Assembly (NCBI GenBank): GCA_914767715.1
Contig: OU612067.1
Coordinates: 10,728,001-10,792,000, forward strand
From: Membranipora membranacea
Lineage: Eukaryota; Bryozoa; Gymnolaemata; Cheilostomatida; Membraniporidae
Length of the DNA stretch: 64,000 bases
Reading direction: 5' to 3'
In this document: one piece after another, positions 1 to 64,000 of the stretch
Layout of the letters: each line of letters begins with the position of its first letter
Position numbering within the stretch: the stretch's first letter is position 1
Translations under genes and position numbers: made by a program
The notes under the pieces: generated by a model
Told to the model about the DNA's origin: nothing
Seen by the model: only the letters and a program-made list of their open reading frames with translations
Database searches by the model: none

Positions 1-701
1 TGCCAACCTTGAATCTATTAACAGGTAAAATGATAAACAAACAAAGTCCACACATGTAACTCAGCATGGTTTCCCGAAAATTCTTAGAACTGGTCTGACA
101 CCTACCTATTTCTTCACAGGGCATGTAACTGCAATAGCTTAACCTATGGCAACATCTCCTATTCATGTTAACTTTATATATATGCCAACCTTCGCCATTT
201 GAAATTTAGTGCTTGTTACAGGGTCAGTCCTATTAGATAAAATGGATATATTACCCCAGTATATCAAAAACTGTGAGTTCATAGGGCAAATAAAAATAAC
301 GAAAAAATGAAAATTGTGGAAAATAGCAATTAGTTCTTTTTCAATTATTTTAGCAAGGATCATAGTGGATCATAGTGGTCAGGGGGAGGCAATAAATCAC
401 TGTGATCCACTATGATCTCAATTTTCAGACTTTGCAGCAGTTTTACTGCAAATAAGTTCACAGGCTGTATTATTTCATATGCTCCGATGACTTTGCAGCC
501 CCAAAAAGCTCAACTTAAGTTTAGCTTATAACTACTACCCAACCAACATGCCCAACGTTTTTGTTGAACATTTTCAGAGCTGAAGAAGAGAAGACTATTG
601 ACGAAGAATACTCCTCAATACTCATGACAACCAAAACTAAAAGGGCTGACATAAACTCTGGAGTAACTGAGCTAGTTGATAATGAGTTATATGGTACTTA
701 G
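1..701 (+). CDS. Receptor copy A, 3' end (class 1 tail, partial)
   Basis: This is the end of a receptor gene that starts left of the window. Positions 1-24 match the last codons of the long tyrosine-rich tail exon of copies B and D and are followed by a GT donor at 25. The last exon runs from 578, after a TTTTCAG acceptor, to the TAG at 699-701. It encodes about 41 residues, starting AEEEKTIDEEYSSIL and ending VDNELYGT. The YSSI (YxxI) and ELYG tyrosines are conserved in copies B, D and H, and the phase 2 junction agrees with theirs. The exon should form the cytoplasmic C-terminus of a type I membrane protein. No break is visible in this small part. Function is inferred from the family. Confidence 0.7.
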
Positions 702-825
702 GCCGCGAATATGCAACTTAACTCGGAGCACTTGAAAGCCATCGATGCTGAATATTAAGTGTTAAACACACAGGTGTCTCCCCTCCCTGAAAGCCGAGAT
801 AATCACCAAAACCGGCGTATTACTG

Positions 826-946
826 GCATTTAGTATTTTTTTTTTTTTCCTATTTTCTATGCACTAGGTCTTATTTGACCGCCCTATTTAACGGGCCCCC
901 TTAAGCTCGGGTGGCTTGTTTGGGGTAGTACCCTATACCCTTGCCC

Positions 947-960
<14 letters not shown>
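826..960 (-). repeat. SINE-family fragment (3' part)
   Basis: The segment with CTATGCACTAGGTCT and TTTAACGGGCCC recurs almost identically inside the SINE at about 18352-18640 and at 34136-34183. Here the tRNA-like head is missing and the copy ends in a CCGTTG array. A T-run (about 837-849) adjoins it on the + strand. Confidence 0.5.

Positions 961-983
<23 letters not shown>
948..983 (+). repeat. (CCGTTG)n microsatellite
   Basis: About six perfect CCGTTG hexamers in tandem. The unit is already present once or twice inside the related SINE copy at 18460, so the array probably grew from the repeat's own sequence. Confidence 0.85.
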
Positions 984-3900
984 TGAAACTTGCTTAAATA
1001 TTCCCTTTTCTATTGGTATTGATATGTTAGGTCTTGTAATTCGGATGTTAAACATCAAAAATTGTATCATCATCTTTATTTGAACCATATGTAATCAAAC
1101 ATACCTTGTGCCACCATGAATCGTTTTCTAGCTCAAGAAATTACTCAGATATCTTCAAACATTTCACAACCGAAATCAGCTTTTTGCTTGCATTATAATG
1201 CCTTATAATTTGGATTTACACTGGCCTAGAGAGTCAGTGTTTTGCTTCTTAATATCATACTTCCTTTTGTCAATAAAACCAATCAAATCATAAAAAATGC
1301 AATAGAAATACTACAAGAGGATAAAAGTCAAGGATTTATGGAGTCATTGTTTTTGAATCACTTGTTAATAGCTCATTTTTATCAAACAGGCAGTCATAAT
1401 CAGAAACTGAAAGATGATAACACTTAAAAATTTGGTGCAGGTGGCAGACGGTCAGGTGCAATCGTAATCTTATCAATCTTGGTAGAACTGATGTAACTCA
1501 AGTATCATAAAAAAAGTCTAGTAAGATTTTCTCAAATTGGCTGTTCATAGTTAATATAAACAATTTTGTGCATACATTTAAACCTTTATTCATTTAAGAC
1601 AATGATAAACAATTTTTATAAAACAGATCAAGCTGGCTTTGGCACCTAACTAAAAAAAATGCAGCAGTACACGTGTAACTTCTAGTAGGCCCACTGGTAC
1701 TCACTGCATGCTAATCGACATACCCGATGTATGATCAGGTTTGCGTTTACGTTGCTTTTACAGACGATATGTTGTTTTGTTTACCCACACATCACCTTCA
1801 ACTGGTTGATTTATAATTGTCTTTTAAAATGTGACATCTAATTTAGAAATCACGACCCGGCTCAAAAAATACTAACTGGCCCTTTTGTCAGACTGTAACA
1901 TAGGGCCTTTTGTGTCTAAGTGGTATGGACACAATGGGAAACTCTTGTTTGAGCCACTTGAAAGCATATGTATACTGATATCTTGAAGGAATGGCCATGG
2001 TGCAAATGGTAGAGCATGGGTCTTTCAATTTAGAGGTCCAATGCTCCATTACCGGAATATAATGATGGTGTCAGGAATGTCATCTGACCTCAAATACTCT
2101 TGGAGATACACACAAAACAAGGATATGCTATCAGTGAAACAAACTTTCCCAATGAATACACAGCTAACACCAACTCATCTCTGACTATCACAGGATTACA
2201 GCCTCAGCAGATAGTACAGGTCAAGTTCCTGATCTGTTTTACTTCCCTAACTAGCCTGGTTGTTATTATGAATTTCTGCTTATTTCTGAGTCTACTCATG
2301 ATAATGAGATAAAATATTGCAGTGACCCTAGCAGGGAACCTACAATAGAAAGATGGAACCATATCAAAGTTTCAAGCTGTAGTCTCACATTCAAATATAC
2401 ACCAAAACCCAACGCAAACTCTGTCGGACCTGGATTCTACTTTCAGTACCTAGGTTGGTAAAAAAGGCTAAGGAACAAAAAAAAAATTTTGTTGTTGTTT
2501 GTAGCTTCATGATATTAAAGGAAATAGCAGACCACCACACAAGTTCGGCAAGTGATATCATTTCAAAATTATGGAATGCGGCGAATTTAGGGTTAATTAG
2601 ATAGATTTGGTTAATGAACATTAAAACATCATTAGCTTTGGACTCCTAACCACAATAAACAACTACAACTCTGCTTCTCTTATAGTTTTGGAGCCTGTGA
2701 CAACAACGTGTACAGTATACCTCGTACATCTGCTTCTACAGCAACTAAGCCTTCAATGTTTGCAACCAACTGGCAACTGTCAGAATAATAACATCACCTA
2801 CAGCGACACCCACAATAAATTAATGTAGAAGTATTTCACCTGCATCGCCAACTATGTCACTTCAAAGTCACAGAATATCTGGACGAGAAACTACACGGCC
2901 AAACTTCACAGGTTAATGAGATAAAAGTAACTAAAATGAATTAACAGCAAGTCATTTTTCAAACTTTACTGTAAATTTGATTATCCATTCATAATTATTA
3001 TAAAAAAAAAGGAAAATACCAGGATGTTGTTTCCTCTTAAAAACAACAACAGTGTCATGCTGGTTTGATGTTACAGGCATACATTCTGTCACCAAACATT
3101 GCTGTGTAAATCGGCAATACCACAAATTTTGTGGATGAAAGTGTGAGTTGTATTCTGAAGACTTACAACTCCCAATCTTGCAGCCTAAGGAAACATGTTG
3201 TTATATTCTGATATTGTTGTTGAAGTTGAAAATCCCGTGGGCAGCAATGGTCAAATGCAGCGAGGGAATTACTTTGTGGCATTAGGAGCTGGGATCGGAG
3301 CGGCAGCTTTAGTCATCATAATAGTGGTAATCATAGCAGTGCTGATAGTGTTCAGACATCGTCAGGAAAAAGCAAAGTTAGTTCCTAGGCAAGAATAAAT
3401 AGTAACCATAGTAAAAACCAACTTTGTTAGACTCGCTCATTGCAAGCTGGAGAACCTTACTTTACAAATTTTTACAGGTCTTTGCATGACCCACGCCTCT
3501 TTATCCTGATGGTACACACCTACACGATTTTTTACCAGTCATGCGATTTTCTTTGATACAATCAATTAAGCTCGCTCCAGATTTGTCCATACGGCGTCAC
3601 TTTTCCTCTACCAATTCTGCAGCATAGTGTTCGATTGCCATCATAATAATGCACATACTTCCACCAAAAGCTATTTAATTCTTTTACAGAGGCTCCTCCG
3701 ACAGCAGGCCGAATTGTGGGTACAGCAATGACACTTCTGCTGAGAAAACTCTCCGGATTCGGATGTCGGTATTACCCTCAGATCCAGGTATATTATATGC
3801 GACCAATGTTTGATTTTAATATTAAATCCCGAAGCTTTGTTATAATGAAAACTTACTAAGGTAAATGTCTTGCTAATATTTAGAAAAAAGTGTCATCCCT

Positions 3901-4672
3901 CCGGTGGCATAAAAATATTCAAAATAACCTACCCCTAGCCTCTAGCTCCGGTCTACTGCTAGCAATAATATTGTCTTCTCAAATATCAACATTTTTTAAG
4001 ATTTGGTGTTCTGCGTAATTGAGGCCATGTTAATGTTCATAAAGTCATTGAAGTTGTTTCTCAACAGATGTTTACAACTACACTATGATGCCTGAGTCAG
4101 CTTGTACCAATCACGGGGCAGCACTCTCTCAGAATGGAGCACATTACTCTGCGCGGACAGGTGCTGTTGAAACAGACTATGACATGGCTGAGCAGATTGA
4201 ATCTGGTGCCATGTATCATCTAGCTGATGCAGAAATAGAAACCTCTCAGTATGCACTAGCGGAGGAGGTAAACCCTAATGGAACAAAGAGAGATGCACTG
4301 AATTATGGGAAAGAAAAAAGATATGATGATGAATAGGAACTGGCTGACTCGACAGCTGAGGATTATGCCAACAATGAATCTGTCCACAGGTAATATAAGT
4401 AACTAGCTTTGGGGTCATGCTGCCCAGGCTAGGAAAGGCAGCTGACCGTCCCAACCAGATAACCAGGATGTAATCTTGTGAGATCTCAAGTTCTCACAGC
4501 TCAGGCTCAGCAGATTTCAGAGAGAATAAAGACAATGAGACGACAACGAGTGATAACAGACAGCATCAACCACTTCAAATCAGAGACCTTTCTCAGTTTT
4601 ATCTTTTGACGAAATCTGTTGTGTATTAGGCATAATTAAATTACTGTCAGTTATCAGGCATCCCATCTCTAC

Positions 4673-5484: not shown

Positions 5485-5497
5485 TTAGTATAATAAA
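5485..5497 (+). promoter_or_regulatory. Polinton promoter-like motif TTAGTATAATAAAT
   Basis: TTAGTATAATAA immediately precedes the ATG at 5497. Close copies precede the capsid ATG (10408-10421) and the 12611 gene (12599-12609), and lie within both terminal repeats. Recurrence just before start codons suggests an initiator or TATA-type element used by the transposon. Confidence 0.55.
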
Positions 5498-6106
5498 TGG
5501 AAGCACAAACAAACAAATCTACTGGTGAAGAGATGCTAGCCAGGCTGCGGGGCACTCGGGGTCGGATGCCAAGGGTAATCCTACCACACACAGATCTGGA
5601 GGAAGAGATAATGGAGCAGGCGGAGCTGATAGAAGCGGGTGTGAGTGAAATAGAAATGCGTGGATCGGGATGGGTCCTTGAGATAGTTAACAGATTTGTT
5701 ATAGAACTGTATAAATATGAGCCACTTAAAGGGGGCACTTAAATATTTAGGTGATAAGAAGGTTTTGATTAATGTAGACAACAGCGGTAACAAATCATTA
5801 GATGAGATTAGACATATTGCTAGTCGGATTGGAATTGAGTTTACTACAAAAACTAGTAAAAAGCAATTGGTAGAGTTGATAGAAGGTAAAGACCCAAATG
5901 TGCTGAAAGATAACAAGTGCTTCAAGTGGGCAGTATTATCGTGCCTACACCCAGCAGAAGATAATGCGGACAGGATCACTAAATACCTCCCTTTTGAAAA
6001 TGAACTCGATGATAAGGCTTTATCATACCCTGTGAAGATAATTGATGTGCAAAAATTTCCCATTAAAAATAATCTCATCATAAATGTTTATGAGTGGGAT
6101 AATTAG
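5497..6106 (+). pseudogene. Polinton polymerase B, N-terminal region (frameshifted)
   Basis: Two overlapping open frames, 5497-5742 and 5717-6106, form the N-terminal extension typical of Polinton protein-primed polymerases. The first contains EIVNRFVIELYKYEPLKG and the second NKCFKWAVLSCLHP, both hallmark stretches of the family. A frameshift near 5735 separates them. Residues about 25-55 of the second frame resemble a SAP/HeH-like helical motif (SLDEIRHIA to KKQLVELI). The start at 5497 follows directly on TTAGTATAATAA, the element's promoter-like motif. The region leads into the exonuclease and polymerase parts downstream. Confidence 0.8.
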
Positions 6107-6246
6107 GCTCTGCGGCTAGGTGTTGTACACACAGACAGATGGTTGTATAGGGAGCAACTACCAATCGTAAACCTACTGTTATATAAGGGGCATTATATGT
6201 GAATAAAAAGAATGTCAGCACTTTTACATAAGCAGACTGCTCATAC

Positions 6247-8794
6247 GGTGGGGGCAATGTTAACCTGTCTAAGGTGTACTCACCACTTAACATGCGAGCG
6301 CACACTAGCTGAGCATATAGAACTATGCCTCAAGGCCTAGATTGCGACTGTACGATTAAAATGCCTATAGAGGGTAGTACGATGAAATTTAAAAACCTTA
6401 TGAAGATGGAAAAAGTGCCGTATGTTGTGTACGCAGATTTTGAGTCAGCCATTGACAAAGAGACTAAAGCTCACAAGGCATGTGGCTTTGCAACCTACTT
6501 AGTAACCAGTTTAGGTGAGTCGTTAAAGTTTAAGCTGCATAGGGGAAAAGATACAATGGATAGATTTTTTGAAGAATTGGGTGCTATACAAGGCATGGTG
6601 GATGACATTCCGCTAGCTGAGATGATAATTACTCGTGAGCAGGAGCGAGAGTTTAAGCTTTCTACAGAGTGTTATATGTATGGTACAACATACACTGATG
6701 AGGATAGGGTAAAAAACCATCCAGTCAGAGAGCATGATCACATATCTGGTTTATACCGGGGTTCTGCCCACATGAAATGCAACCTTTGGCATAGACAGAC
6801 AAAAAAGATTAAAGTCATGTTTCATAATCTTCGAGGGAACGACTCTTATCTAATAGCGAAAGCCTACCGTGGTAGCATTAAAGTAAATGAAAATGGTGAG
6901 GAAAAACGAACGGGTACTGTCAATGTGATTGCCAGCACTGATGAAAGATACACATCCATGAAAGTGGATAGGTTTGAGTTTATGGACAGCCTCCAGCATT
7001 TAAATGCATCCCTAGACAAGCTAGTTGAGGGGTTAAAAGGAAACCTACCCTACCTCAAAAACAAGTTCCCAAAACATAGCAGCTTATTGTCGAGAAAAGG
7101 TGTATATCCGTATGAGCACATGGACTCGTTTAAAAGATTTGAAGAGTGCAGACTCCCATCAATTGAGGCCTTTAGCAGCTCATTGAATAACCACAAGCCG
7201 ATAAAAGATAAAGACTACAAACACGCTATCAACGTCTGGCTAAAATCTTGGGGGATTATATTTGGAGACGGATGTGTTGCTGCTTACAGACGTCTTTGGT
7301 AGCTACAGAATGATGGCAAGACTATGGGCTTGATCCTTGCAACTATATGACTGCGCCATCGCTAGCCTGGGATGCCTCACTAAAAATAACTGGACAGAAG
7401 CTAGAATTGATTAGGGATGTGGATATGTACAACTTTGTTGAGAATGGCATAAGGGGTGGTATATCTACACCAGGGGGTCTGCGGTATGCCAAGGCAAACA
7501 ACCCCTACCTAAGAGATTACAACCCGGAAAACCCTCTCAGTTACCTTATGTATGTAGATATGAACAATCTATATGGCTGGGCCATGTCTCAAAAGCTGAC
7601 TACGGATGGGTTTGAGTGGGTTAAAATGGAAGATGGATTGCTAGATCTAGACTTTGTTGATGATGGTGAGGGTTACATTGCTGAGGTAGACCTAGAATAC
7701 CCGCAGATCTACACGACACGCATAATGACTATCCCCTAGCCCCTGAGAGCTGGCAACCAAAACAATGTTCAGACTATATGCGAGAAGTTGGGCCCACTGA
7801 TCTTATGGGCAAACCCCGCTACTGCAAAGTAAACAAGCTGGTCCTGAACATAAGTATGTGGTGCATCATCAAACCCTAACCACATACCCGCGAATGGGGA
7901 TGAAGCTAAAAAAGATACACAAGGTGCTCAAGTTTGAGGAGAGTGCTTGGATGGAGCCATACATTAGACTCAACACAGAGCTCCGGAAGAAAGCAACGAC
8001 AGACTTTGAAAAGGACTTTTTCAAGCTAATGAACAACTCGGTGTTTGGCAAATCTATGGAAAATGTTCGCAAATGTAAGGCTTACGGTAGAAGATAAGAT
8101 GAAAGAAAAGTGGATCAAAGATTGCAGGTTTAAGCGTAGTAAAGATTTTAATGAAGACCTGTCGGGATTCTCGATGAACAAAAATCTGTCACTCTAAACA
8201 AGCCCATATATGTCGGTCTAGCAATCTTAGACATATCAAAAACCCTGATGTATGAGTATTATTATAGTAACATTAAGCAAAAATATCCTGGTGCTAGAAA
8301 GCTGTATACCGACACTGATAGCTTTCTTTTGTTGATCCACACCAATGATTTTTACAAGGCGATGCCCTTAGAGGAAGGAGTATGACACGAGCAATTATCC
8401 AAAAGAGCATCAATACCACAGTGAGAAAAATAAAAAGAAGATAGGGTTACCCAAGGATGAAGGAGGGGGAAAACCCATAGCAGAGTTTGTAACCCTACGA
8501 TCTAAGTGCTATTGTGTTAGGTTTGATGACTGGCAGATGGAAAAGTGCAAAGGCGTAAAAAAGTGTGTTGTTGCTGACATAAGGTTTGAAGATTACAAGC
8601 GCTGCCTTGATACTGGAAAGCGAGCCACTGACGCGCGAATGAATATTATCGGCTCTAGACTTCACGAACTAAGGACGCTCAGCCTTGTTAAAAAGACCCT
8701 ATCTGCCTTTGATGATAAGCGATTTTATACAGATGCAGTGAACAGCTATGCTCACGGTCACTATAGAATAAATGATATACTGCATGAAGTGTAA
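6247..8794 (+). pseudogene. Polinton protein-primed DNA polymerase B, exonuclease and polymerase domains
   Basis: Family B DNA polymerase that would replicate the element by protein priming. A zinc-finger-like CLRC...H...C stretch lies at about 6258-6345. The frame 6325-7302 has the 3'-5' exonuclease motif YADFES (about 6430) and HNLRGNDSYL (about 6820). Frame 7347-7739 carries polymerase motif A, DMNNLYG (7557-7577). Frame 7858-8097 carries motif B, MNNSVFGK. Motif C, YTDTDS, is at 8305-8322. The C-terminus, 8537-8794, ends near YAHGHYRI. At least four frame changes or stops lie between these pieces (near 6340, 7300-7350, 7740-7860 and 8097-8540), so no complete enzyme can be made. Confidence 0.88.
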
Positions 8795-9829
8795 ACAAAA
8801 GACGGGGACGCGTAACGCTGGAACCACAACATCGGTTAACGGAAGAACGATGCGTGTGGGGATATGCATTGGGTGCGGCTGTAGGAAGGTTCCGTTCATG
8901 GGTGGAGCTGCGAAAAAGCCTGTGTCGACTGATGAGCTCGCGGAAGAGCTGCACAAACCCATCAGGCATAAGTTTGAGAATAGGTGGGTGTATTCACCTG
9001 ACATAGATAAGAAATGGGCCGCAGATCTGGTGGATATGAGTAGCCATGCCAAAGAAAATAATGGTGTAAAGTACCTGCTGGCAGTGATTGATGTGTTTTC
9101 TAAATACGGTTGGCTGGTGCCCCTGAAAACCAAGACTGGAAAAGAGGTGGCTGAGGCCTTTGAAAAGATATTAAAACAACGAAAACCCTCGAGAGGGCTA
9201 CGTGTGTGGGTTGATAAGGGGAGAGAATTTTACAACATGTGGGTAAAAGACATGATACAAATATATTCAACTGAAAATGAGGAAAAATCTAGTGTGGTGG
9301 AGAGATGGAACCGTACCATGAAAGATAAGATGTACAAGTACTTTACAGCGAATAACACGCAAAAATACCTTGATGCTTGATAAGATGGTGGATAATTACA
9401 ACCGCGCAGTCCCTTCATCCACTGGGATGAGACCTGTGGATGCCAGCAACCCTGTAAGCTCTGACGCGGTGAGGGCTAAGCTATATCCGCCACTAAAGCC
9501 CCAACCTAAGCCAAAGTTTGAAAAGGGGGATCTTGTGCGTTTAAGAAAAAAAAAGAAAACCTTTGAAAAGGGTTACACAGCCAGGTGGACTGAAGAGGTC
9601 TTTAGAGTCACAGCCGTGAGATACACTAACCCAACAACCTACAAAATCGCTGGATTGAATGGAGATGAGATTGAAGGTATATTTTACGAGCCCGAGCTAC
9701 AAATGTCCAAGCAAGAAGTGTTTAGGATAGAAAAAAGTAAAAAGTAAAAAGTCTCTAGTCAAATGGATGGGTTGTCCGGAGAGCTTCAACTCATGGGTGG
9801 ACGCTGACACAGTAATGGGCATGCAATAA
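8772..9829 (+). pseudogene. Polinton retroviral-type integrase with zinc ribbon
   Basis: Frame 8772-9380 starts with a zinc-ribbon-like segment (CMKC and CIGCG, residues about 4-36) resembling DUF5679. It continues as an RNase H-fold integrase core: first Asp in WAADLVDM, second in VWVDKGREF, Glu in VVERWNRTMK. Frame 9370-9747 gives the end of the core and an SH3/chromo-like tail with FEKGDLVRLR. A further piece with VKWMGCPESFNSW reaches the TAA at 9827-9829. Breaks are a frameshift near 9375 and a stop at 9745-9747. The ATG overlaps the polymerase 3' end by 23 bases. This enzyme would have joined the element to host DNA. Confidence 0.88.
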
Positions 9830-10048
9830 ATGGGGAATGAAACAATAGGTGTGAGCACAGGTGGAGGCAGTGTGTTGGGCGTAAATGCCCTGTTAGCAAT
9901 TGATAGGGTAAACTTGGTAATGTTGCTCGGTATGTGGATTCTAAAGATTATGAAGCGGTTAAGATCCAACGAGAGCAAAGTTACCAACCTTGATAGGAAG
10001 ATAAGTCGATGGAGGGGCAGAAGGGATTTACGCGTAACAGAGCTTTAA
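9830..10048 (+). CDS. Polinton hypothetical protein, 72 residues
   Basis: An open frame beginning immediately after the integrase stop. It has a glycine-rich N-terminus, a hydrophobic stretch at about residues 27-43 (LVMLLGMWILKI) and a basic C-terminus (KISRWRGRR). I recognise no family. Since its neighbours are decayed it may be a remnant of a longer gene. Confidence 0.35.
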   Translation: MGNETIGVSTGGGSVLGVNALLAIDRVNLVMLLGMWILKIMKRLRSNESKVTNLDRKISRWRGRRDLRVTEL

Positions 10049-10069
10049 AGGTTACCTATATTAAATAAA

Positions 10070-10387
10070 ATGGATGACGATAAACTTAAAAGGTTTTTAG
10101 CAAGAATGAAAGAAGATATTAAAAAGAAGTCAGTCTGGCTAAATGATTACGATGATGCATTTGAAATATTTTGGGAAGTGAGGGATAAACCATTTTTCAT
10201 AGAGATGTATAACTCCAGCCCTACCCCCGAGAGCTCTAGAGTTTGGTTGTACAAAAGCTATCCAGTCAGACACCCAGAGCCGCGAGCCACTCTGGTTGAT
10301 CTTAAGAAAAAGGCAAAACAATTGGGGATTAAAGGTATATATAAAATGCATAAGGCAGAGTTAACTCAAACCAAAGGGTTAATATAA
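10070..10387 (+). CDS. Polinton small protein with SAP-like C-terminus, 105 residues
   Basis: An intact frame lying between the integrase and capsid genes, where Polintons usually carry small proteins. It is charged at the N-terminus. The C-terminal part, LVDLKKKAKQLGI through KMHKAEL (about residues 70-98), fits a SAP/Rho-N-like nucleic-acid-binding helix pair, resembling the insert in the polymerase N-terminal region. The assignment is by pattern only. The role is unknown, perhaps DNA or terminal-protein binding. It ends 37 bases before the capsid ATG. Confidence 0.6.
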   Translation: MDDDKLKRFLARMKEDIKKKSVWLNDYDDAFEIFWEVRDKPFFIEMYNSSPTPESSRVWLYKSYPVRHPEPRATLVDLKKKAKQLGIKGIYKMHKAELTQTKGLI

Positions 10388-10423
10388 TAGATAATACACA
10401 AGTTTCTTAGTATAATAAATAAG

Positions 10424-11669
10424 ATGGCAGCAAATATTACCCCAGAATTTTTGCGATTGGAGGAGCAACCCATGGTGGACACTTCCGTGGACTCTCTAGA
10501 GTTTTATGAAATAAAGCTGGCCAACCCTGACACGGAAGATAATCCTAGATTTACAATTGATAACACCGATCAGTGGGTTTTGCCTAAAGAAGCGTATCTA
10601 CAAATGACGGGTGAGATTGTAAAGGCAGCTGATGGAAGTTCATATGCCGCTGCTGATAATGTGGCATTTGTCAACAATGGACCTCTCTATCTATTTGATC
10701 GGGCAATCTATAAGATTGACAACCAAGCCGTGGAAATAGTGGAAAAGCCAGGAGAGGCATCACTGGTAACATCTCTGGTAGACTACTTGGATGACTATGT
10801 AAACTCTATGGGTGAACAACTCATGATAGCAAAAGATACAAAAGATAATGATACAGCGAATACCAACACTGGATTTTTTACGCGAAAGGCCCATAAGGAG
10901 TTTGATCTCTGTATTCCCTTGCCGCATATATTTATTTGGCTTCGCTAGGGGTGTTACTAAGATGCTTTATGGTATGACCCACACAGTGGAGTTTCAGAAG
11001 GCTACGAGTCAGAACAACGCATAGTATAGGAAAAATGATGTAGATGCCGCCAAAGTAAAGCTCACTGGACTGAGTTTGTGGATGACTAGAGTAAATCCCA
11101 GTCTAGAGTCCAGCACCAAGCTGCTAAAGTTTATCAGCGGGAAAAAGGAAATGCAAACCCCATTTCAACAAGTAAAGTATTTTGACAAGGCATTTGCCAA
11201 CAACAAAGACATGGCTTGGGATATTACACAATTTAGGAAAACTGACCGCCCTATGCACGTATTTGTAGCATTTCGATTACGGGATAATGAGGGTGATCAG
11301 GATAAGAACAATGCATTATTTGACCCTTGTGCTGTTACTGGCATTTCACTAACTGTAAATGGTGAGATACACCCTAGATTTCCATACTCGGTGGACTTTT
11401 CTAACAAGCAAGTGGGTAGACCTTATCGCGATTTGCCGAACTACCGGGGTATTGACAATAAGTATGATTCTGGCATGCTTATTACAAAGTCTGAATTTTT
11501 GTCAAGATATCCAGTATACCACTTTGACCTTGAAAGAATGCCAGAGGCTGTAAATGACAGCGCAACTACTCTTCAGCTTAGGGCTAGGCTGAGTGCGGGG
11601 GGCAATTATAGAGTGCATGTTACCATGCTTTTGGATCGAGAATTGACATTTACGGGTGATGGTAAGTAA
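10424..11669 (+). pseudogene. Polinton major capsid protein (double jelly roll)
   Basis: Frame 10424-10948 has N-terminal features of Polinton major capsid proteins, including LYLFDRAIYKIDNQAVE and an EKPGEASLV segment. The second half continues in another frame to 11669 with LRARLSAGGNYRVHV near its end. A frameshift near 10930 and a TAG at 11022-11024 break the gene. The combined length, about 415 codons, is close to normal. The start codon follows the element's TTAGTATAATAAAT motif. The protein would form the icosahedral shell of a virus-like particle. Confidence 0.85.
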
Positions 11670-11679
11670 TTGAATGTAA

Positions 11680-12024
11680 ATCTTCGTTAAAAAATTTAAT
11701 ATCAAGTTGGAAGGGCTTACAGCGGGTAAGCCATTAAAGCTCAGTAAAAAGCAGCTTATGCATATGAAAACCCAAGGTGGATTTTTGGGGGTTTTGTTTA
11801 AACTAATTGGACCAGCCATGAAACTTATAGCACCGGTTGCAAAAACCCTGGGACCTGCAGTAGCGACGTGAGCGCTATCGGGTGCGGCCAGTTACGGTGC
11901 CAATAAACTGTTAAGAAAGGCTGCTGGTGATGATAAGAGGAGGGGTAAAGGGCTTGAGCTTAAACCCTACAAGGGTGGTAGAAGGTTCGAGCTTAAACCC
12001 TACAGGGGTGGTAATGTGCGCTAA
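11680..12024 (+). pseudogene. Polinton small hydrophobic/basic protein with internal stop
   Basis: Following the capsid gene, an open frame without a clear ATG contains FNIKLEGL, a hydrophobic stretch (FLGVLFKLIGPAMKLIAPV), then a TGA at 11869-11871. It continues with a basic Gly-rich tail holding two near-identical ELKPYKGG/ELKPYRGG repeats to the TAA at 12022-12024. Short hydrophobic-basic proteins next to the capsid gene are common in Polintons and have been likened to adenoviral core or minor capsid peptides. That comparison is inference. Confidence 0.6.
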
Positions 12025-12044
12025 CATTTAATGAGATTAATGGT

Positions 12045-12284
12045 TTGATTTCATCTATCAAATCCAAGAAGACTGGCGGATTTTTGTATCTGTTGGCTTC
12101 TCTAGCAGCCTCTCTACTACCAACTCTTTTGGGTAGTGGTTTGTCAAAGTCTGAGATTAACACCGCCAAGGACGTTATCTTATCAGTAGCATCGCAGAAA
12201 GAAAAAAATGGCCCAACAGCGTCTAGATCAACTGGCCCAAAAGTATGGCAGCGGCCTGCTGGGAAAGTTGTTTGGCCTTCCTAG
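12045..12284 (+). pseudogene. Polinton hydrophobic small protein, fragment
   Basis: An open frame with KKTGGFLYLLASLAASLLP, a strong hydrophobic segment, ending in an unrelated-looking proline/arginine tail. The reading frame seems to shift near 12200, because a second typical piece begins at 12208 in another frame. It resembles the hydrophobic protein class of Polintons. I cannot assign a role. Confidence 0.45.
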
Positions 12285-12336
12285 AAACAAGGTGCCAGTG
12301 CCGGGAGATATACCCCTACTAAACGTTCTGCTTTAA
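12208..12336 (+). CDS. Polinton small protein, 42 residues
   Basis: A short open frame beginning at an ATG after an A-run. It contains YGSGLLGKLFGLP and PGDIPLLNVLL, a Gly/Leu amphipathic pattern often seen beside the protease gene of Polintons. It may be the C-terminal piece of the preceding broken gene rather than a separate one. Confidence 0.4.
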   Translation: MAQQRLDQLAQKYGSGLLGKLFGLPRNKVPVPGDIPLLNVLL

Positions 12337-12566
12337 AGCCATTATCTAATTACGACATTATATTTCACGGTTCCAAGTTCCCCGGTTTCATGGGTTGTTT
12401 TATGCGCGACACATTACCGAATAACTTAACCCAAGGCTGTGGTGTGTTAAATTTAGATGGCTCAACCGGTCCAGGAACTCATTGGACGGCTTGGCACAAA
12501 ACCGTTTATTTTGATAGTTTTGGCTTGGTTATAGTTGGGATTTTTGAAAGCAATGAGCTCTGGTAA
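12300..12566 (+). pseudogene. Polinton adenain-like maturation protease, truncated
   Basis: An open frame with family signatures FMRDTLP, CGVLNLDG, GTHWTAWH (catalytic His) and YFDSFG (catalytic acid). It then ends early at the TAA of 12564-12566. The C-terminal portion that should hold the catalytic Cys and oxyanion Gln is missing, so the enzyme is inactive. In intact elements this Ulp1-like cysteine protease processes capsid proteins. Confidence 0.78.
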
Positions 12567-12610
12567 AGATCCAGAATAATTTTTTCTCAGCATATTTCGA
12601 GTATAATAAA

Positions 12611-16207: not shown

Positions 16208-16232
16208 CTAGGAGGAAGTATTGCAAGCAAAT
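16208..16232 (+). promoter_or_regulatory. Conserved ETS-like site block 2 upstream of copy C
   Basis: CTAGGAGGAAGTA followed by a CAAG and an A-rich part, about 295 bases before the ATG. The same block lies about 210 bases before G's ATG (36476) and about 265 before I's (48871). Conservation at similar distances in three otherwise diverged upstream regions supports a regulatory role. Confidence 0.4.
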
Positions 16233-39591: not shown

Positions 39592-39626
<35 letters not shown>

Positions 39627-49136: not shown

Positions 49137-52100
49137 ATGAGGGGTCAGACACAGATCCTCATAACACTCCTGCTAGGACTGTTAAGTTACTGTTTGCTGG
49201 TCACCGGTGAGTCTTCATGTGTTACATTACAATCCTCACAGGAGAGCATCCTAGAGAGACAGATTTCTGTCTACCTCTGTTTCACAAAATCTGGTTAGTT
49301 GATGGCAATCATTAAAGCCTGTAAGCTTGACTGCCAAAAAATGACATTTTTTCACCTGGCCATAAGATAGTAAAAATACTTTGGAATTGAAGTATTCATT
49401 GCCATTATACAAATCCAAATGAGTTGAGCACATCTCATCAACATGTGCGGGTGTTCTCAGACTTTCTTGTTGGAATAAGCAGCTGGAACAGGTACTGCCA
49501 CCAAGCGTTGTTTCGCATATCCAGTTAGAATATTTTTATGTTTGTACTATAACATTCATTCAATGATGTTTTCTCGCACTCAGGTGCAACATCTGAGGGA
49601 AATTCTAATGGTGCTCCTTGTGTGCTGCCGTTCATTTATAGAAGCAAACAGCATTACACCTGCATTGATAATTATTTATCGAGTGGCCTCTGGTGCTCAA
49701 CAACAAAAACATTCCAAGAAAAATGGGGAAGATTTTCAGGTGAGTGTTGACTCTTGAGTAGAGTGCCAAATGGCAGTCGATTCAACAGTGAGAAACAAAA
49801 ATTGTCTTCTATTTTTTCATTGTCTGTTAGCTTTTCATGATCTTAATAATGTAGGGTATAATTTGCAGATAGTGTTTACTGCTATTGAGTCTATCAAAAT
49901 TTTTCATTGTCAGATACATTCTCCACACACTAGGACATTTATGTTTTTGCTAAGCAGTTAGTCAAAACAATTCCAGGATAGAAAACAAAGTACTCACAAA
50001 GATACAACATTCAGTGGTGCGCGTACCACTGCACAACACACAGGTCTTCAGCTAGAAACCATGAGTCAAACGCTGTTACGAGGCCTTCTCTAGTACAACC
50101 TCCTCATGGCCGGCCCCAGCAGCATGAAGCCACCCCTGTGTGTTGCTGAGCATCTCAATCAATCTCATCGATCCCTCAGTGCATTTTGTAAGTTTCGGTG
50201 GTTTGTCATAATTGGTGTGTTTATGCTGTTGCGCAACCAGGGAGGCTGCCAACTCTTCATTGTTTCAGTGCAACAATTTTTGCCCCATCACTCTCATGCT
50301 TATACTCTAAGCCAAACCAGTGCAGGGAGGTTTGCTTTCCATCAACTCATCGGCGCAAAGTCGCTATCGTCAAGGCACCCGCCCCTTGTGCCACTCGTAC
50401 ACTACTCAAATTCACCACATTGAGCATAGCACAACTCATACACAAGTCAGAGAGATGACTTGTTTGCGCTACAGCCAGTCGGCTGACTGTGATTTCCTGT
50501 CTCGCTCTGCCTGCCTTTTATGCGAGGGCCAAGCTTTTAATCCTATATTAATCCTATCCTGAATTACAGCTGGTCCATCGAATTTTACCCAAACAAAACC
50601 AAAATATGCAGAGTATACAATAATCAGAGTACTCAGACAAGGATCCCAGTGTTTGACACAAATATCTAACCAGGCCTCCTATTGTTCACCGATATCTTAC
50701 TTTGGAATAAAAGCCATGTATGTAACGCATCTAGCAGGCCGGTAGTTCTAAAGGAGGCAGGGAGTCGCTCCCTCACCTCCTCTAGAATGCTAATACATTG
50801 ACTAAAGAACTTAATAACTGAATAATCTGTATCAGGATCAGTTCATTTGGAACTTCTGTTTCCTATTTATAAACCTAAAAAACACTTTGAAGGCTGAGGT
50901 TAGTTCAAGGAGAAGCTAAGAGCGACCCAACTGGTGTTTCTTTAGGCCACCTTGCCTCTCCTCCTCAACCATTTTCTAGACTAGGATATGATATCATAAG
51001 CTAATATGGCCATTGGATAATTTATCAATATTTCTTCTATTGATTTAAGACACATCAGAGGCAGAGAGTGGTGTGTATGTGATGTTAGATGGTAAAAACC
51101 AGCAGATCACGCGTCAGAAAGGAACTATAATCAGTCACAGAGGGTATCCACAGAAGAAATATCCCAAAAATGTGGACAGTACACTAAAGATACAGGTTGA
51201 TGGGGTTTTAGCGATGACATTGGCAGTCTTGGACTTTGAGCTTCATGACCATCAGAAGTCAAACGGAGACTACTATGACTTTTTACAAATCAATAATGAT
51301 GTTAAATACTGTGGAGTTGAACTTGCCCAAGGAGAGAATAAAACCTATTTCATGGTGGACGGAAAATTCAGTCTCAAGTTCATTACAAGCTCTAGAAATG
51401 TGCAAAAAGGATTCAGATTACACTATAGTTATAAAAGTGAGAAGGCAGCAGCAAAACTGATACGGGGTGGATAATATCTGATAGAAGCAGTGAGGCGGCC
51501 CGCATCAAAATTGATAAGGGTTTTATTGCAGAGAAATGTAAGAATAAATAAGAAGAATCAGGGGTATTGTGATGAGTCAAGTCATTGCCACTTGGTTCTT
51601 ATCCGGAACACAACTTTTCTAATGTAAATATCAAATCATATTTTTGTTTTAGAGTTACAGCGAGTCAGTTGTGACACAAGCAGAATTCATCGAGCTTATA
51701 AATCCATCCAGCAAGCTGTGAAGTTGAATGGCAATACTTTCGCTTTGTCAGCAGAGTGTAGAATGAAATCCTCCTCAGTCAATGACACTATCTACTGTGA
51801 TACCATGAGCAGAAAATGGGTTACATTAAATGATGGTAGCGGTTCCTCTGCATGTTTCAACATTCTTGGTATGATGGTTAAATAGTTATTCTAATGCAAG
51901 TGTGAAATAAATGTTATTTTTTTCGATTATTGTTAGCTTATCATGAGACAAAACCATTAAATATTAAATTCATTATGTTATCTTAGTTCTCTGTTGGCCA
52001 ACTAATTATAATCCAATTTCGGCATAAATCAAACAGGCCTTATTACTTAGACTTTTCAATACTGTAAAGTCATTAATTATTCCACCGTACCTAAATGTGT

Positions 52101-55100
52101 CTTTCTTCTCCATGTAGAATCCCATAAGCAGAGTAATGGGGAGATAATCATAGAACAATTCTCTTGCAGGATTAATCAAGTAGAATCATGAGTAGAAAGT
52201 ATGAAATTAAGTATTTCTGGGTTTGGTAATTTATACCACTTTTTTCTACATACAATGCTCTATGGCCAAATAATGACCATTTCAATGTTTCAGATGCTTC
52301 GCCAATCTATCAACCGGCCCAAAACTATGCCCAGGAGACAAGTAATGAACAAGGCTACGTTATCAGTCATACAAAGTTCCCTGAAGATTACACAGCTAAC
52401 ATCAACTCATATCTGACTATCACAGGATTACAGCCTCAGCAAATTTTACAGGTCAAGTTCCTGCTGTTTGATTTGTATTATCATCGCCGGAGCCCTGGCT
52501 GCTGGTGGGACTTTTTGCGCATCACTGGGACCACTCATGAAAACGAGATAAAACTCTGCAGTGACCCTGACGAGAAGCCAACCATGAACAGATGGAACAA
52601 CTATACAGTTTCTAGTTTTAATCTGACATTCGGATTCATCACTAACAACAACGCAAACACTGTCAGATCTGGATTCTACTTTCAGTATCGAGGTCAGTAG
52701 TAAAGCGAAACACCCACATTTCGTTTCTATAATATGAGTGACATAAAGTTTGATTTTAGTAGCTTCATAAAATTCATGGTAAAACCAAAACACTGCTTGT
52801 TTGGCAAGTGACAGCTTATAAAAGATGAATGGTAATTAAACATGAACTTAAACTATAGCTATGTATATCCTAACCCGCAATAAAACCGCTTCTAACATAC
52901 ACAGTCTTTTGAATAGTTTTAGATCCCATGACATCAACCTCTACCAGAATACCATCTACTGCTACCCCCACCACAACCTAACCTTCAACGTCTACAACCA
53001 GACCAGCAACCATCAGAACAACAACAAGAACAACACCAACAACAACCGCAGCGACTTCTACAACAAATGAATTTAGCACCATTTCACCTAGAAGACATGA
53101 CAGTACGACTGGTAAAAAATATACAATGTCAATCCAAACTACTCACAGTCACACCTCAGCAGGAACAGAGACTACACAGCCAAACATCACAGGTAAATTG
53201 GGAAAATCATAAATAATGAAAAAACTACCAACTATTTAACAAATATATTATACAATATTATAAAAATCGCCAATATTTTAGTTCTCCACTCATAACCAAT
53301 ATCAAAAACAATACTAACCAGTAGTTGTTTCCTCTTACCTACGACAAAAGCTTGACATTGACTAGTAACTGGGTCATGTTGTGGTTATCAGTGGGGATAA
53401 CGTAAATGTGAACCAAATAGAAATCATAACTCATCATTTTACAATCTTACATTCTTTTTTTAACAAGTAATAATCTTAATATGTATCTCTTTGATTTTCC
53501 TAGCTTGTGAACACTATCTATGCCAGCACAAAGAACTTGGCTTGATATTTGTGCTATACTGTTTACTGATTGGTCAAAATTTGCTGCTTACTGGACAGGC
53601 ATTGATGGCCAGGTGAAGAAAGAGGATAACACTGTAGCATTGGCTGCAGGTATCGGAGTGTCAGCTGCAGTTCTGATATCAGTGATCATAACAGTGTTGA
53701 TACTGCTCAGGCTACATCAAAGTAAAGCAAAGTGAGCTACTCTAAAAGCTAATGATTCTAAAAGAAACACCGGTTTCTTTGGTTGAAAAAAATTTCAATT
53801 TATTTGGCATGAGAAGTATTACATTCAAAATTGCGTGGTTCATAACCTCTGAATATAGGTCATAAAATCTTGTGTGAGCATTATCATATCGAGTAGCAAG
53901 AACATTTAGTATGAATGTATATTAGATTTTTGATTCTAGATCCATTAGACCACATTCAGCTAAATTACTAGATGCATAACATGATATTTCCTAGATGTTA
54001 TTTTCTTCCTATATCATAAGATTTCTTCCTATATTGGATAAACTTTTTCCTCTCCAGAAAAAGACTCTTAACTCATACTCTGTGATAACCAGTTGGTGTT
54101 ATTTAACTTTTACATATTCAGTCACATTGTCTTAACATTCAAGGGTGATTTATTATTTATATGTAGACAAACGGCAGAACCAGAGAATGAATATACATCA
54201 GCTAATACTGCTTCTACTGATCCTCATATCTACATGTCTGCAATTCATCCTGATGCAGCTAACACCTAGCTATCGATGGCATGCATGTTGTCACCTCGAC
54301 ACCGCACTCATCTTTTTAGATTATTCGCAAAAATGCCTGTACCGGTGTTGATAAGTTGAGGATATACAAACAACAGTCTTACAAGTCAATTTTAAACAAA
54401 CACAAACTTAACACAATTGGTGTTTCCCTATTGTCTGCTTGTCAGTGATTATGTAAGTACAGCAGAAGAAAAAATGTTCACATATTTTACAGGGATATCC
54501 AACACCACTTGTACCAGCCCTTATGATGAGGTGGAAACATTTGTCGGTAATGTAAATCATTGTGTAGATGGCACACAGACTAGTGATGACAAGAATGATT
54601 ATGAGAACACACAGAATATACAAAGGTAACAATAATAATAATTCAATGACAAAAATACATTCAAAGGCGAGAATAGAAAAATATTGATAGTAGAACAAGG
54701 AAAATAGAGCAGAGTAACAGAGAAACGTGAAAAAACACCACCACTCAGAATTATATCTCACATATGAAGAACCTGGTTGCAATCCAAAAAATTTTTCTTT
54801 TTCACCCCTTAAATTTGTCAGGGAGGAGCTTACTGGTGTTGCTTTCAGACACACCTCAAAATTTTGCCTCCCCTGCCATTTTTTCTAAACTACGGCCCTG
54901 CAAAATTAAATACATAATATTGGATTACATTATGCTTCTAGATTATTTATGACATCCTTCATGCAATTCAGGTCCTTAGTTGTTTTAAAGAAACAAATAC
55001 AGTGGCAGTTGTCAGCCAGTAAATATTTAAACATGTATAATTTTAGGAAAATGATAAGTAAAAGTCTCTTCCAGATAACACATAACCTTATAAGTAAGGT

Positions 55101-55230
55101 ACGAGTTATTTTCATGATTTTTTCCAGAAACTTTCGGCGTGCTGAGTCTGATTACACTTCTGCAAGAGCTATAGCTGCCTCTGATGTCCATATTTATACA
55201 ATAGCAGCTCCTGGTTCATCTGAAATGTAA
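49137..55230 (+). CDS. Receptor copy I, class 2 tail, stop codon in the stalk
   Basis: Ten exons: 49137-49206, 49584-49739, 51050-51436, 51653-51868, 52294-52692, 52923-53192, 53599-53731, 54167-54258, 54493-54625, 55128-55230. The sum is 1959 bases, a multiple of three, so the frame is kept throughout. An in-frame TAA at 52979-52981 in the Thr-rich stalk would give about 428 residues with signal peptide, FN2, CUB1, four-Cys and CUB2 but no membrane anchor. FN2 lacks its last cysteine (WGRF for WGKC). CUB1 has Tyr where its paralogs have Cys (GDYYDFL). The tail-1 donor is CT instead of GT. It could be a secreted form or an early pseudogene. In-frame upstream ATGs at 49125 and 49083 exist; 49137 matches the exon length in C. 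Confidence 0.7.
49990..50560. other. GC-richer insert in intron 2 of copy I
   Basis: This stretch is richer in C and G than its surroundings and has no counterpart in intron 2 of C or G. Open frames inside lack any recognisable motif. It is probably an inserted repeat of unknown type. Confidence 0.35.
50750..50790. repeat. Imperfect hairpin in intron 2 of copy I
   Basis: AGGAGGCAGGGAG, a short loop TCG, then CTCCCTCACCTCCT form a stem. No known function. Confidence 0.4.
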
Positions 55231-60580: not shown

Positions 60581-60714
60581 TCCATAGCACAATATATAAT
60601 GCTGATATTCAATTCCCCACCGTGTTTAGAAGTTCATATGCTCCTTTCTAATTCCCGCAACATATCATCATCACCAATTTGCATCAAATGGGAAGACAAC
60701 TCGGCATTTTTGTT

Positions 60715-60893
60715 GAGTTGCGACATTTGCGATGTTAGTGGGTTCGAGCTATTGCGATGTTTAAAAAATTGCGACATTTGTGGGTTTGCGACGTTTAAAA
60801 GACTGTTCGTTGCGACTTTTTTTGGATTGCGACGTTAGTGGAATGCTAGATTGCGACGTTTTGACGTTTGCGACGTTTGTGGGTTCAACAGAC
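60715..60893 (+). repeat. Irregular TTGCGA(C/T)GTTT array
   Basis: About ten partial repeats of TTGCGACGTTT or TTGCGACATTT with linkers such as AGTGG and GTGGGTT, at uneven spacing of 11-30 bases. No coding potential is seen. Confidence 0.7.
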
Positions 60894-61124
60894 CTGATTG
60901 TTTGTTTGAACCCCTGCACAGCTTGAATTCAAGTGGGCATAGACAACTTGTGGTCTTTTGAGGCCAGCACCCGCTCTGTATATTGAAGTTGTGCATGTGA
61001 TAACTAAAGGTAGATTCATGATAGATCGACGACTCCCTTTCTTTGAATAAAAAAATGAGCTTTGGATAGAGCAGGAAAACCTGGCCCATTCGCATTCCTC
61101 ATAGAATTACTCCATAGTTACTAG

Positions 61125-63988
61125 AGTTGCAACGAGTAAATTGTGACACCCAGAGACTGCAGCAAGCTTATAACCACATTCAAAATGCTGCTATCGCGGA
61201 TGTGAATGGTTATGCAGTCTCGGCGGAGTGTGGAATAAGACCTCTATGGATAATAGATACACTCTACTGTGACAGCAACAGCAGAAAATGGCACAGAATG
61301 AATAGCAGTAGTGGTACTTCAGCATGTTTCGACATTCTTGGTATGACATCAGAACTGTTATGCGTTGGTACTTTTTTTTACTTTTCATAAGAGATAGAAC
61401 GAAGTGATATATATCAACATTGCACAGTTTAATGCTGTTATGTACTAAATACCGCCGCTGGTGAGGGGTGTTGTGAGACACGTGGCAGGTGCTGTATGGG
61501 ACTGGTTATTCAGCACTCAAGGCCTATAAAGCAACGTTTTTGTGCTGTAGGGGCGGTATGAGTACTGTAAGACATGTCTCATACAGCATCTGCCACACAT
61601 CTCACAACACATATATGTTGTTACATGCAACATGGGTTACACCAAAAAACCCTCTTCTATGATGTTTTCATAAATTTGGTACTGCCCATACAGAACTGGA
61701 CTTTCCTGTAATGAAGGCAGGGCTGAATTTCGGTTATTCCTTGCTTTATTCTAGGTGTGATATTTGTACCTTAATTTAGTAGGGGTTGGGAGGATTAGGT
61801 ATCCAAGCTATGTGTGTTGGTTCGGTTTGTCATTCAGCACAGTCCAACTAATTTCTATTCTACTGTGATTCGATTTTATCGCTTACCAGATTTTAAAATG
61901 TATAACTTAAAAGTTAGGGTTTCCTTTACCTGGAAGATTCCCTGGAGCGACGTGACTAAATACATATACCCGTATAATAAAAGACCACGCAAATCTCATA
62001 ACCATTTATAATTGATCATGAAGGGATCAGGTGCTACTCTTCATTTCCGTTTATATCACTAAACTCTATATGCAATTTTCCAAATCAAATAAGACATTAT
62101 CAATGTTTCAGAGGCTCTTGCATTATACACTCCTACACAGATTACCGCATTGGAGATCAACAGCAAACGAGGATATGTCATCAGCCATGCAAACTTTCCA
62201 GAAGATTACACAGCTTACATCAACTCATCTCTGACAATAACAGGATTACAGACTCAGCAGACAGTACAGGTTAAGTTCTTGGTGTTTGATATCTATTATC
62301 AATCAAACCATCAGGGTTGTCTCTACGACTATCCGTTAATTACAGGTACCACAAATGACTATCGTACAAAGCTCTGCAAGTTTCCAGGCCAATCACCAGA
62401 CTTAGATATATGGTACAACTACACAGTTACTAGTTCAAGACTGACAATCAGTTTTGTAATCAATTCGAACACAGAAACAGTAGGTACTGGATTCTACTTC
62501 AAGTATCAGGGTCAGTACTACAGAAACACACATGTCCTGATGTGATTAGAACTGTATGTATTCATATTTTGCTAATCATGATTTTTTATGTTAAGATATA
62601 TGATATGACATGATATAGTGGGAATATCAACTCAGTAAAATATGATGACTTACAAATGACAACAAATTTAAATAAGATGAAAATCTCTGCCTAACTTTTA
62701 AAAGATCTGTTACAACAGTCTATCAATAGTTTTAGATGCTTCTACTTCCACCACAACAAGAGCTTCAGTAGTAACGACCCGACAAGAATCCTCACTATGC
62801 ACATCGTCTGTAAAGCCCAAAGGATCAACAAGCATCACACCCACAACATCTGACATGAGCAGCATGGCAATACAAACTACTCACACCCATGGATCAACTA
62901 ACCAACAATCGACAAAGCCAAACATTACAGGTGACTGCAGACTCTTAGTTCTAAGAGAGGTAGGCAGGCACTGCCTCGCTTCGAACTAAGATCTTTGATC
63001 TATAATCTTAATGAATTAGCCAGAAACACAATAATCAAGTGAATTATTTTTGCTTTCCGCATGTCTTTGGAGGCTGGAACTTCTTTCCATACCTGCCCGG
63101 TGAAGCTAATAATACCACGTCTGCTGCTACTGCGCGACACCAAGGATAATGTCCCCCTCCCCAACCATTTTTTTTCAAAAGTTTAGATCTGGGAAAAGAA
63201 TAAACATGATGGAAAATGAGTTAACTATGTTTTACAGATTATTCAACTTCAGGTTCCCATAAAAGCGTTTTGCTGACAATACTTATCTTTGACATGTTCC
63301 TAACAACAAAAGCTCGGGCTTGCCCTCCCCCCTTGACTTACAGCACCAAATTCTTGCAAACTAAAAAAGAATCTTGATGTATATTGTTGCAACAGATAGA
63401 GATTCTGTAGGCAGTGATGGTCAAATGCAGCAAGGGAATAACTCTGCGGCAATAGGAGCTGGGATTGGAGCGGCAGCTTTAGTTATTATAATAGCGGTAA
63501 TCATAGCAGTGCAGATGTTGTTCAAAAGATGGCGGCAAAAAGCAAAATAAGTTCCTAGTCAAGGGTTGCAAATCCATGAAATTATAAAAACAACATTGAC
63601 TGTTTGGTTAGGTCCTGGCAGGCCGCACCTACTTTATAACTCAACTTAAATCCATACAAGTCTTTGCATTACGATGGTAAAAATGGACTGAATAAATTTT
63701 CAATGCTTATGATATGTTCTTAGATACAATAAAATAAGCTAGCAAAAGAATCAGCCATACCAGATCACTCTGCCTCTACTTGTTCTGCCACATGGTATGG
63801 TTGCCATTATAGGCTTATGTATAAAGGTGAACATAAAGATAATGGTTACATGTTTAGGGTTCAAACAAGTTCTGGTGATGTTTTTAGATCGTTTTACAGC
63901 GGCCCACCAACTTATGGGTATGCCAAGGACCGTTCTGCAGAGAACACTCTCCAAGTTTGGATGTCAGCACTACATTCCACTTTACCAG
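61125..63988 (+). CDS. Receptor copy J, class 1 tail, partial; donor after TM lost
   Basis: Exons: four-Cys 61125-61340; CUB2 62112-62510; stalk 62736-62930; TM 63396-63546; tail 1 63900-63988, after which the window ends. All are open, with phases as in copy G. CUB2 has GYVISHANFPEDYTAY and SGFYF-like end TGFYFKYQG. The TM exon is 151 bases with GAGIGAAALVIIIAVIIAV. The donor after the TM exon is ATAAGT where the other copies have GTAAGT or GTTAGT. Reading through gives a TAA at 63548-63550, ending the protein at WRQKAK with almost no cytoplasmic tail. No signal peptide, FN2 or CUB1 lies in the 5.9 kb upstream, so J either lost its 5' half or is spliced to exons of copy I. Confidence 0.7.
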
Positions 63989-64000
63989 GTATATGGAACT

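Follow-up and report, generated by a model that had tools for sequence, protein, structure and literature searches.

Near-identical FN2/CUB ectodomains joined to two different tyrosine-rich tails in a clustered receptor family of Membranipora membranacea

Paired activating and inhibitory receptors are best known from immunoglobulin (Ig) and lectin families. The vertebrate examples KIR, LILR/PIR, SIRP and the Xenopus FcR family have Ig or lectin ectodomains, and their activating members often combine a charged membrane residue with an adaptor bearing an immunoreceptor tyrosine-based activation motif (ITAM). Among invertebrates, the Hydractinia Alr allorecognition genes encode tyrosine tails on Ig-like ectodomains. 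CUB and CCP (sushi) domains occur together in SEZ6, CSMD and C1r/C1s/MASP, which are not known to start with an FN2 domain. In Botryllus, the fester co-receptor (FcoR) genes number 53 loci so far on several chromosomes, in the fuhc locus of ca. 800 kb and in others (PMC12065747). They encode type I receptors of 520-610 amino acids with an ectodomain of Ig V, sushi and two Ig C2 domains and a long tyrosine-bearing tail with the core motif Y-x-x-[ILV]; the tails can carry a canonical immunoreceptor tyrosine-based inhibitory motif (ITIM) or a hemITAM, and related receptors have different tail motifs (PMC12065747). Here we describe a receptor family of the bryozoan Membranipora membranacea in and around a stretch of 64,000 nucleotides (‘the window’; C3:10728001-10792000, where C3 is contig OU612067.1), in which two alternative tail cassettes occur on almost the same ectodomain. 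The family has paired-receptor anatomy without an immunoglobulin domain.

An earlier note on this DNA, made from its letters alone, had proposed a tandem receptor array with a common domain order and two tail types. Both tail types are present, and the order was recovered, with FN2 and CUB recognized by Pfam and the four-cysteine (four-Cys) module, stalk, membrane span and tyrosine-rich tail also confirmed. Gene F (36643-44148, + strand) is the only unit fully open inside the window, the others being broken or partial. Its ten exons, bounded by GT/AG sites, encode 633 residues followed by a stop, in the order signal peptide, FN2, CUB, four-Cys module, CUB, Ser/Thr stalk, one membrane span and a ten-tyrosine tail of the type called class 2. 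One donor site, GTTGGT, is weak and is kept in the upstream copy A0. The ectodomain modules correspond to exons between phase 1 introns:
36643-36748, + strand, signal peptide exon of F
37134-37292, + strand, FN2 exon
40119-40499, + strand, first CUB exon (CUB1)
40815-41042, + strand, four-Cys exon
41287-41682, + strand, second CUB exon (CUB2)
41882-42037, + strand, stalk exon
42226-42364, + strand, membrane-span exon
43081-43172, 43399-43534 and 44040-44148, + strand, tail exons

Units were located in the window by translated searches with exon peptides. Matches between units reached E values of 1e-40 to 3e-59 (CUB1 of units C and G, 3e-59; CUB2 of the same units, 7e-57), which excludes chance or low complexity as the source of their likeness. 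All four FN2 copies scanned in the window exceeded the Pfam gathering score of 22.2 (PF00040; 43.2, 44.9, 47.2 and 34.5 bits), as did CUB1 at 38.6 and 26.8 bits (PF00431; cut-off 21.4). CUB2 passed the Pfam cut-off in seven of nine copies, namely C and six of seven other single-exon copies. The CUB2 exon of F alone and that of g10448 gave no CUB match at this cut-off; the whole spliced F protein gave one FN2 and two CUB stretches. (Names such as g10146 or g10607, like A0, denote family copies outside the window proper.) At E values up to 0.1, Pfam found CUB, fn2 and a weak TMEM154 match in F and no Ig domain. F therefore differs from Botryllus FcoR, which has Ig V and Ig C2 where F has FN2 and two CUB domains, and from Hydractinia Alr, with which it shares tyrosine tails and not the Ig-like ectodomain.

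The pair A0 and F carries the main finding. A0 lies 43 kb upstream of F and has a class 1 tail. Apart from two insertions in F, the two genes share 96.5-96.7% identity along about 5 kb that starts ahead of FN2 and reaches 10726526, and 91.6% along 10726584-10726947 (0.37 kb with the membrane-span exon); no alignment continues beyond about 105 bp past that exon, and the tails differ. The break in likeness thus falls in the intron after the membrane-span exon. In the region read, which starts after the signal peptide exon, the A0 frame stays open for 594 residues, beginning at FN2 and running through the class 1 tail as far as the stop, and 453 of 484 ectodomain-plus-membrane-span residues match those of F. 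A0 and F alone show one tail exchange. The F intron that separates FN2 from CUB1 holds a non-long-terminal-repeat-type reverse transcriptase (37574-39477, + strand; RVT_1 at 38504-38890). A0 aligns to most of this element with 96-97% identity, which suggests that it inserted before the A0/F duplication.

The two cassettes are distinct in structure and motifs. The class 2 tail spans three exons, with [EDQ]YTS and HIY[MT] in the first and mostly again in the third. In the class 1 tail, a counterpart of the first exon, with variants of MSALPxD at its end, is followed by one long exon with Y-x-[ILM]-[AS]-[DE] repeats and, in seven of eight tails, a closing E[DNH]Y[AT]x[IL]. Motifs were counted in eight class 1 and six class 2 tails, excluding the stop-bearing tail of unit I and short remnants at 10032143 and 10141952. 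Y-x-[ILM]-[AS]-[DE] occurred in 8/8 class 1 and 0/6 class 2 tails, [EDQ]YTS and HIY[MT] in 6/6 class 2 and 0/8 class 1 tails, and for each class motif 0/1000 shuffled tails were as frequent, in controls that are not independent because the tails are paralogues. Y-x-x-M exceeded shuffles in class 1 (5 versus 0.96); the Y-x-x-[ILV] core was found in 13 of the 14 tails and exceeded shuffles in class 2 (12 versus 5.0). The family thereby resembles Botryllus FcoR as a large type I family whose tyrosine tails carry Y-x-x-[ILV] and differ among relatives. With vertebrate paired receptors it shares near-identical ectodomains on different signalling ends, clustering, tail exchange and pseudogenes.

On balance we lean towards reading these genes as clustered type I receptors in which an ectodomain shared by two tails would couple one specificity to two signalling outcomes, most likely in immunity or self/non-self recognition, a reading drawn from sequence and from analogy with known paired receptors. 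Trees of the two CUB exons count in its favour, and some of the tail labels used on them weigh against it. Maximum-likelihood trees were built for CUB1 (18 genes, six of class 2) and CUB2 (22 genes, six of class 2). Tail type needs five changes on each, close to the shuffled-label means of 5.2 and 5.5, and a single class 2 clade is rejected (approximately unbiased test, P = 4e-5 for CUB1 and 2e-7 for CUB2). Eight of the 22 tail labels (g10179, g10448, g10478, g10506, g10542, g10573, g10307 and g15364) denote the nearest class 1 tail downstream and not a full gene; without them, five changes are still needed (12 and 14 genes). A second, weaker case of near-identical ectodomains on opposite tails comprises the genes at 10.607 and 10.702 Mb (dS, the synonymous rate, 0.060 in CUB1 and 0.044 in the four-Cys exon), of which the 10.607 Mb gene is decayed and carries a second CUB2 exon, downstream of the compared one and ahead of its class 1 tail, so that its label is doubtful. 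With g10607 also removed, four changes remain, on 11 genes for CUB1 and 13 for CUB2, compared with averages of 4.0 and 4.6 for shuffled labels. Both trees thus reject two old lineages defined by tail class. They may themselves be distorted by gene conversion among exons, so the number of exchanges is approximate.

The tails bring further adverse points. Y-x-x-[ILV] in class 1 is not clearly above shuffles (10 versus 7.9), ITAM occurs in 0/14 tails, and strict ITIM, in two of six class 2 and none of eight class 1 tails, is no commoner than in shuffled tails; nor is Y-x-N. The membrane spans of F, A0 and g10039 lack charged residues. Near-identical ectodomains on different tails are present (A0/F and the trees, more weakly the 10.702/10.607 Mb genes), and a division into an ITIM partner and a partner with a charged span or ITAM was not found (ITAM 0/14, strict ITIM 2/14), unlike in vertebrate paired receptors. 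FcoR tails can carry canonical ITIM or hemITAM, whereas strict ITIM here is sporadic and at chance level. The set would work like paired receptors and yet lies outside any named one, since F lacks Ig and no ITIM/ITAM division was seen.

Selection on the ectodomain also counts against the recognition reading. With stop-bearing copies, short hits and pairs with fewer than four changes left out, the pooled ratio of nonsynonymous to synonymous differences per site (pN/pS) of close pairs was below 1 in every module: 0.46 for CUB1 (11 pairs), 0.49 for the four-Cys exon (24 pairs), 0.74 for CUB2 (four pairs) and 0.86 for FN2 (three pairs). The nonsynonymous rate dN exceeded dS in 0/11, 3/24, 2/4 and 2/3 of these pairs, respectively. 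Positive selection across the family was thus not found, and the receptors appear mostly constrained. The exception is the pair g10146/g10164, both of class 2, whose introns differ by 2.1%, CUB2 by 4.4%, FN2 by 4.2% and other exons by 0.7-2.1%. Replacement and silent changes number 17:0 in CUB2, 7:0 in FN2, 3:5 in CUB1, 2:1 in the four-Cys exon and 1:1 in the stalk. The probability that none of the 17 CUB2 changes would be silent is 0.014 (Fisher test versus the rest, 0.009), and the 17 changes compare with 6.3 expected at replacement sites from the intron rate (P = 0.0003) and with 8.1 expected at all sites (P = 0.004); these statistics are indications only, because the pair was picked after the fact.

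Predominantly purifying selection, ITIM at the shuffled level and the lack of ITAM would suit gamete-recognition, adhesion or developmental receptors placed in tandem by chance, with tail exchange a neutral by-product of unequal crossing-over, since tandem arrays recombine unaided. We consider this account unlikely: A0 and F are both open with distinct conserved tails, the trees need four to five tail changes, and the g10146/g10164 CUB2 ratio speaks against it. That one fast-diverging pair could also belong to receptors for microbes, symbionts or food particles whose tails would tune uptake versus rejection. Many known receptors use CUB, FN2 and CCP modules to bind carbohydrates and proteins, and pathogen receptors show duplication, decay and fast-evolving binding faces. 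Nothing specific favours such ligands over other recognition roles, and we regard this version, too, as improbable. Paired-receptor anatomy and the fast pair are easier to reconcile with recognition than with housekeeping. The immune or allorecognition role suggested in the earlier note is accordingly plausible as far as anatomy and this pair go, and is weakened by the pooled ratios, the absence of ITAM and the sporadic ITIM.

The four-Cys module follows the pattern C, then A-x-C, 12 residues, C, W and S-x-C-F, reminiscent of CCP. Among solved structures its profile matched CD46 alone (E 0.97), and the top Foldseek match of a model built from 26 sequences was Crry (E 0.15); both are CCP proteins. 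That model reached a predicted local distance difference test score of 68.5, compared with a poor 43.9 from five sequences. VIA-align showed no CCP among 50 of its 255 matches, which excludes nothing. We consider the module likely, if unproved, to be a divergent CCP/sushi domain (PF00084), an assignment against which it counts that both matches fall below significance. F would then share a possible CUB-CCP-CUB run, besides its CUB domains, with SEZ6, CSMD, C1r/C1s/MASP and neuropilin-2. It differs from the CUB/CCP proteins in its leading FN2, and the neuropilin-2 match is restricted to part of one CUB (E 0.0019).

Relatives were sought among 5.8 billion predicted proteins in a word-based search limited by word and length. 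The full-length receptor search retained 0 of 6504 candidates, and the module profiles retrieved only seven environmental fragments (six with CUB2, one with the four-Cys profile). Under the same limits, prokaryote genome contigs and viral contigs yielded no relatives. In the open-access papers searched, the matches included, by title, one on nemertean ZP proteins and one on LU-domain proteins. No FN2-CUB-x-CUB receptor family was found in these papers or the predicted proteins, and neither was the single-copy housekeeping orthologue that would have spoken against the earlier note; annotated animal proteomes lay outside this search, so ‘unnamed’ applies to the sources covered.

The array is real and extends beyond the window. 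In the 339 Mb of genome scanned (18 contigs), where exon counts are lower bounds, the four-Cys exon has at least 34 matches, 33 of them at C3 9.976-10.798 Mb (27 on the + and six on the - strand) and one at C3 15.36 Mb, defining a cluster of about 0.82 Mb around the window. For FN2 there are at least 67 matches; the interval C3 9.97-10.80 Mb accounts for 37, and 16 form another group on the minus strand at C2 38.99-39.03 Mb. At least 31 matches of the class 1 tail fall at 26 separate sites: 24 within the cluster and one each at C3 15.36 Mb and on C6. The latter (C6:12768244-12768558), a class 1-like tail exon of 44% identity, is possibly an unlinked relative. A class 1 tail follows within 4.5 kb downstream of 16/34 four-Cys matches, a class 2 tail was read directly for 6/34, and 12/34 are assigned to neither class. 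At C3:10607631-10607819 and 10702569-10702757, a degenerate second four-Cys exon precedes the normal one in tandem.

The extent of the cluster resembles that of the Botryllus fuhc locus, and its receptor and tail diversity that of the FcoR genes (PMC12065747). Both likenesses would suit an allorecognition supergene in the narrow sense, a cluster that decides fusion or rejection and encodes ligands as well as receptors. In the 200 kb at its left end, however, long open frames beside receptor exons look transposon-like by eye, and we think this narrow form doubtful. Minus-strand exon pairs at about 10.31 and 10.39 Mb, some 80 kb apart, represent a recent segmental duplication or haplotypes placed in tandem. 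Their constant offset, like the identical CUB2 exons at 10.543 and 10.574 Mb, would be expected if part of the array were an assembly artefact in which two haplotypes in tandem mimic near-identical copies. We give this explanation very little credence: A0 and F are unlike throughout the region 3' of the membrane-span exon, a tail difference that would hold even between alleles, and dS is below 0.35 in only 11/190 CUB1, 24/378 four-Cys and 4/190 CUB2 pairs (with at least four changes).

Within the window, the + strand holds eight family units or fragments and the last 31 bases of a ninth. F, described above, is one of the eight; the others, together with the flank of D, are:
1-31, + strand, 3' end of the A0 class 1 tail exon, which stops at C3:10728031
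2103-4393, + strand, unit A, class 1, decayed: CUB2 with frame break and stop, 2103-2458; membrane span, 3240-3350; first tail exon, 3700-3783; class 1 tail with inner stop, from 4052
16496-21712, + strand, unit C, class 2, frameshifted: signal peptide, 16496-16576; FN2, 16979-17137; CUB1, 17436-17822; four-Cys, 18036-18254; CUB2, 18915-19316; stalk, about 19493-19804; membrane-span exon with frameshift, about 20180-20312; tail exons, 20708-20809, 21040-21177 and 21596-21712
27869-30921, + strand, unit D, class 1, decayed: CUB1 truncated at 27869 next to a BEL/Pao element; CUB2, 28644-29048; stalk, about 29262-29498; membrane span with stop, 29784-29894; first tail exon, about 30215-30307; class 1 tail, 30574-30921
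31052-32924, + strand, flank 3' of class 1 unit D
33239-34024, + strand, fragment E: CUB1 with frameshift and four-Cys exon, 33806-34024
34187-35111, + strand, orphan start of another copy: signal peptide exon, 34187-34255; FN2, 34974-35111
49125-55227, + strand, unit G, class 2, probably decayed: signal peptide, 49125-49208; FN2 without its last Cys, 49583-49738; CUB1 with one Cys lost, 51049-51435; four-Cys, 51649-51867; CUB2, 52293-52697; stalk interrupted at about 52979 by an in-frame stop that a later AG at 53007 could avoid; membrane span, about 53599-53731; tail exons, 54162-54257, 54492-54626 and 55144-55227
61121-63535, + strand, unit I, class 1, decayed, continuing past the window end: four-Cys, 61121-61339; CUB2, 62111-62518; stalk, about 62732-62932; membrane span, 63410-63535

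No four-Cys exon was found in D, and neither FN2 nor CUB1 in I, whose tail at C3:10792705 has an inner stop. The many copies of the earlier note are thus confirmed at a lower count than its ten or more. The alternation of tail classes that it described is local only, since strict alternation is contradicted by the order from 10.72 Mb (class 1, 1, 2, 1, fragments, 2, 2, 1, 1). Its 32.6 kb spacing (signal peptide exons at 16496 and 49125, with the fragment at 33239-34024 about midway) and duplicated flanks were borne out. Upstream of C (13856-14240) and of G (within 46947-48721), parts of the D flank reappear: 13856-14240 is similar to 31052-31449 and partly to 46947-47140. Likewise, 16129-16429 is similar to 48795-49104. 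The array therefore seems to have grown by copying of neighbouring units with their spacers, and duplication with decay, as noted earlier, is borne out.

Other features accompany the units. The BEL/Pao retroelement (23788-27787, - strand), with Pao peptidase and integrase zinc-binding domains, abuts the cut CUB1 end and may have disrupted unit D. A Polinton/adintovirus-like element with broken open frames (5497-12925, + strand; outer limits by eye) contains an integrase core (PF00665, 8772-9380) and a double jelly-roll-like domain (11025-11669). Between F and G lie tandem repeats with a 10-base unit (44685-44782) and a 72-base unit (44776-44980), and 44391-44674 recurs at 45402-45689 with 91% identity. 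No Rfam family reached its gathering score in the window, and a bacterial-code program detected no tRNA there.

In the recognition reading, the extended ectodomain would bind a variable ligand, held off the membrane by the stalk, and engagement would lead to phosphorylation of tail tyrosines and recruitment of SH2 proteins. The two tails would dock different SH2 proteins and give one specificity two outputs, as in paired receptors. A fuller version, which we put forward tentatively, is a paired-receptor system without Ig or lectin domains, perhaps amounting to a supergene for allorecognition or immunity, whose ectodomains have the order FN2-CUB-(CCP-like)-CUB and in which CUB2 and FN2 faces diversify and recombination in one intron repeatedly swaps the two tails. 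If true, the same logic would operate on an FN2/CUB ectodomain, and recognition clusters would converge on tail exchange. A0 and F offer a clean natural experiment, with a near-identical outer part and two tails in one genome, and the cluster is a candidate locus for graft or fusion tests in Membranipora membranacea.

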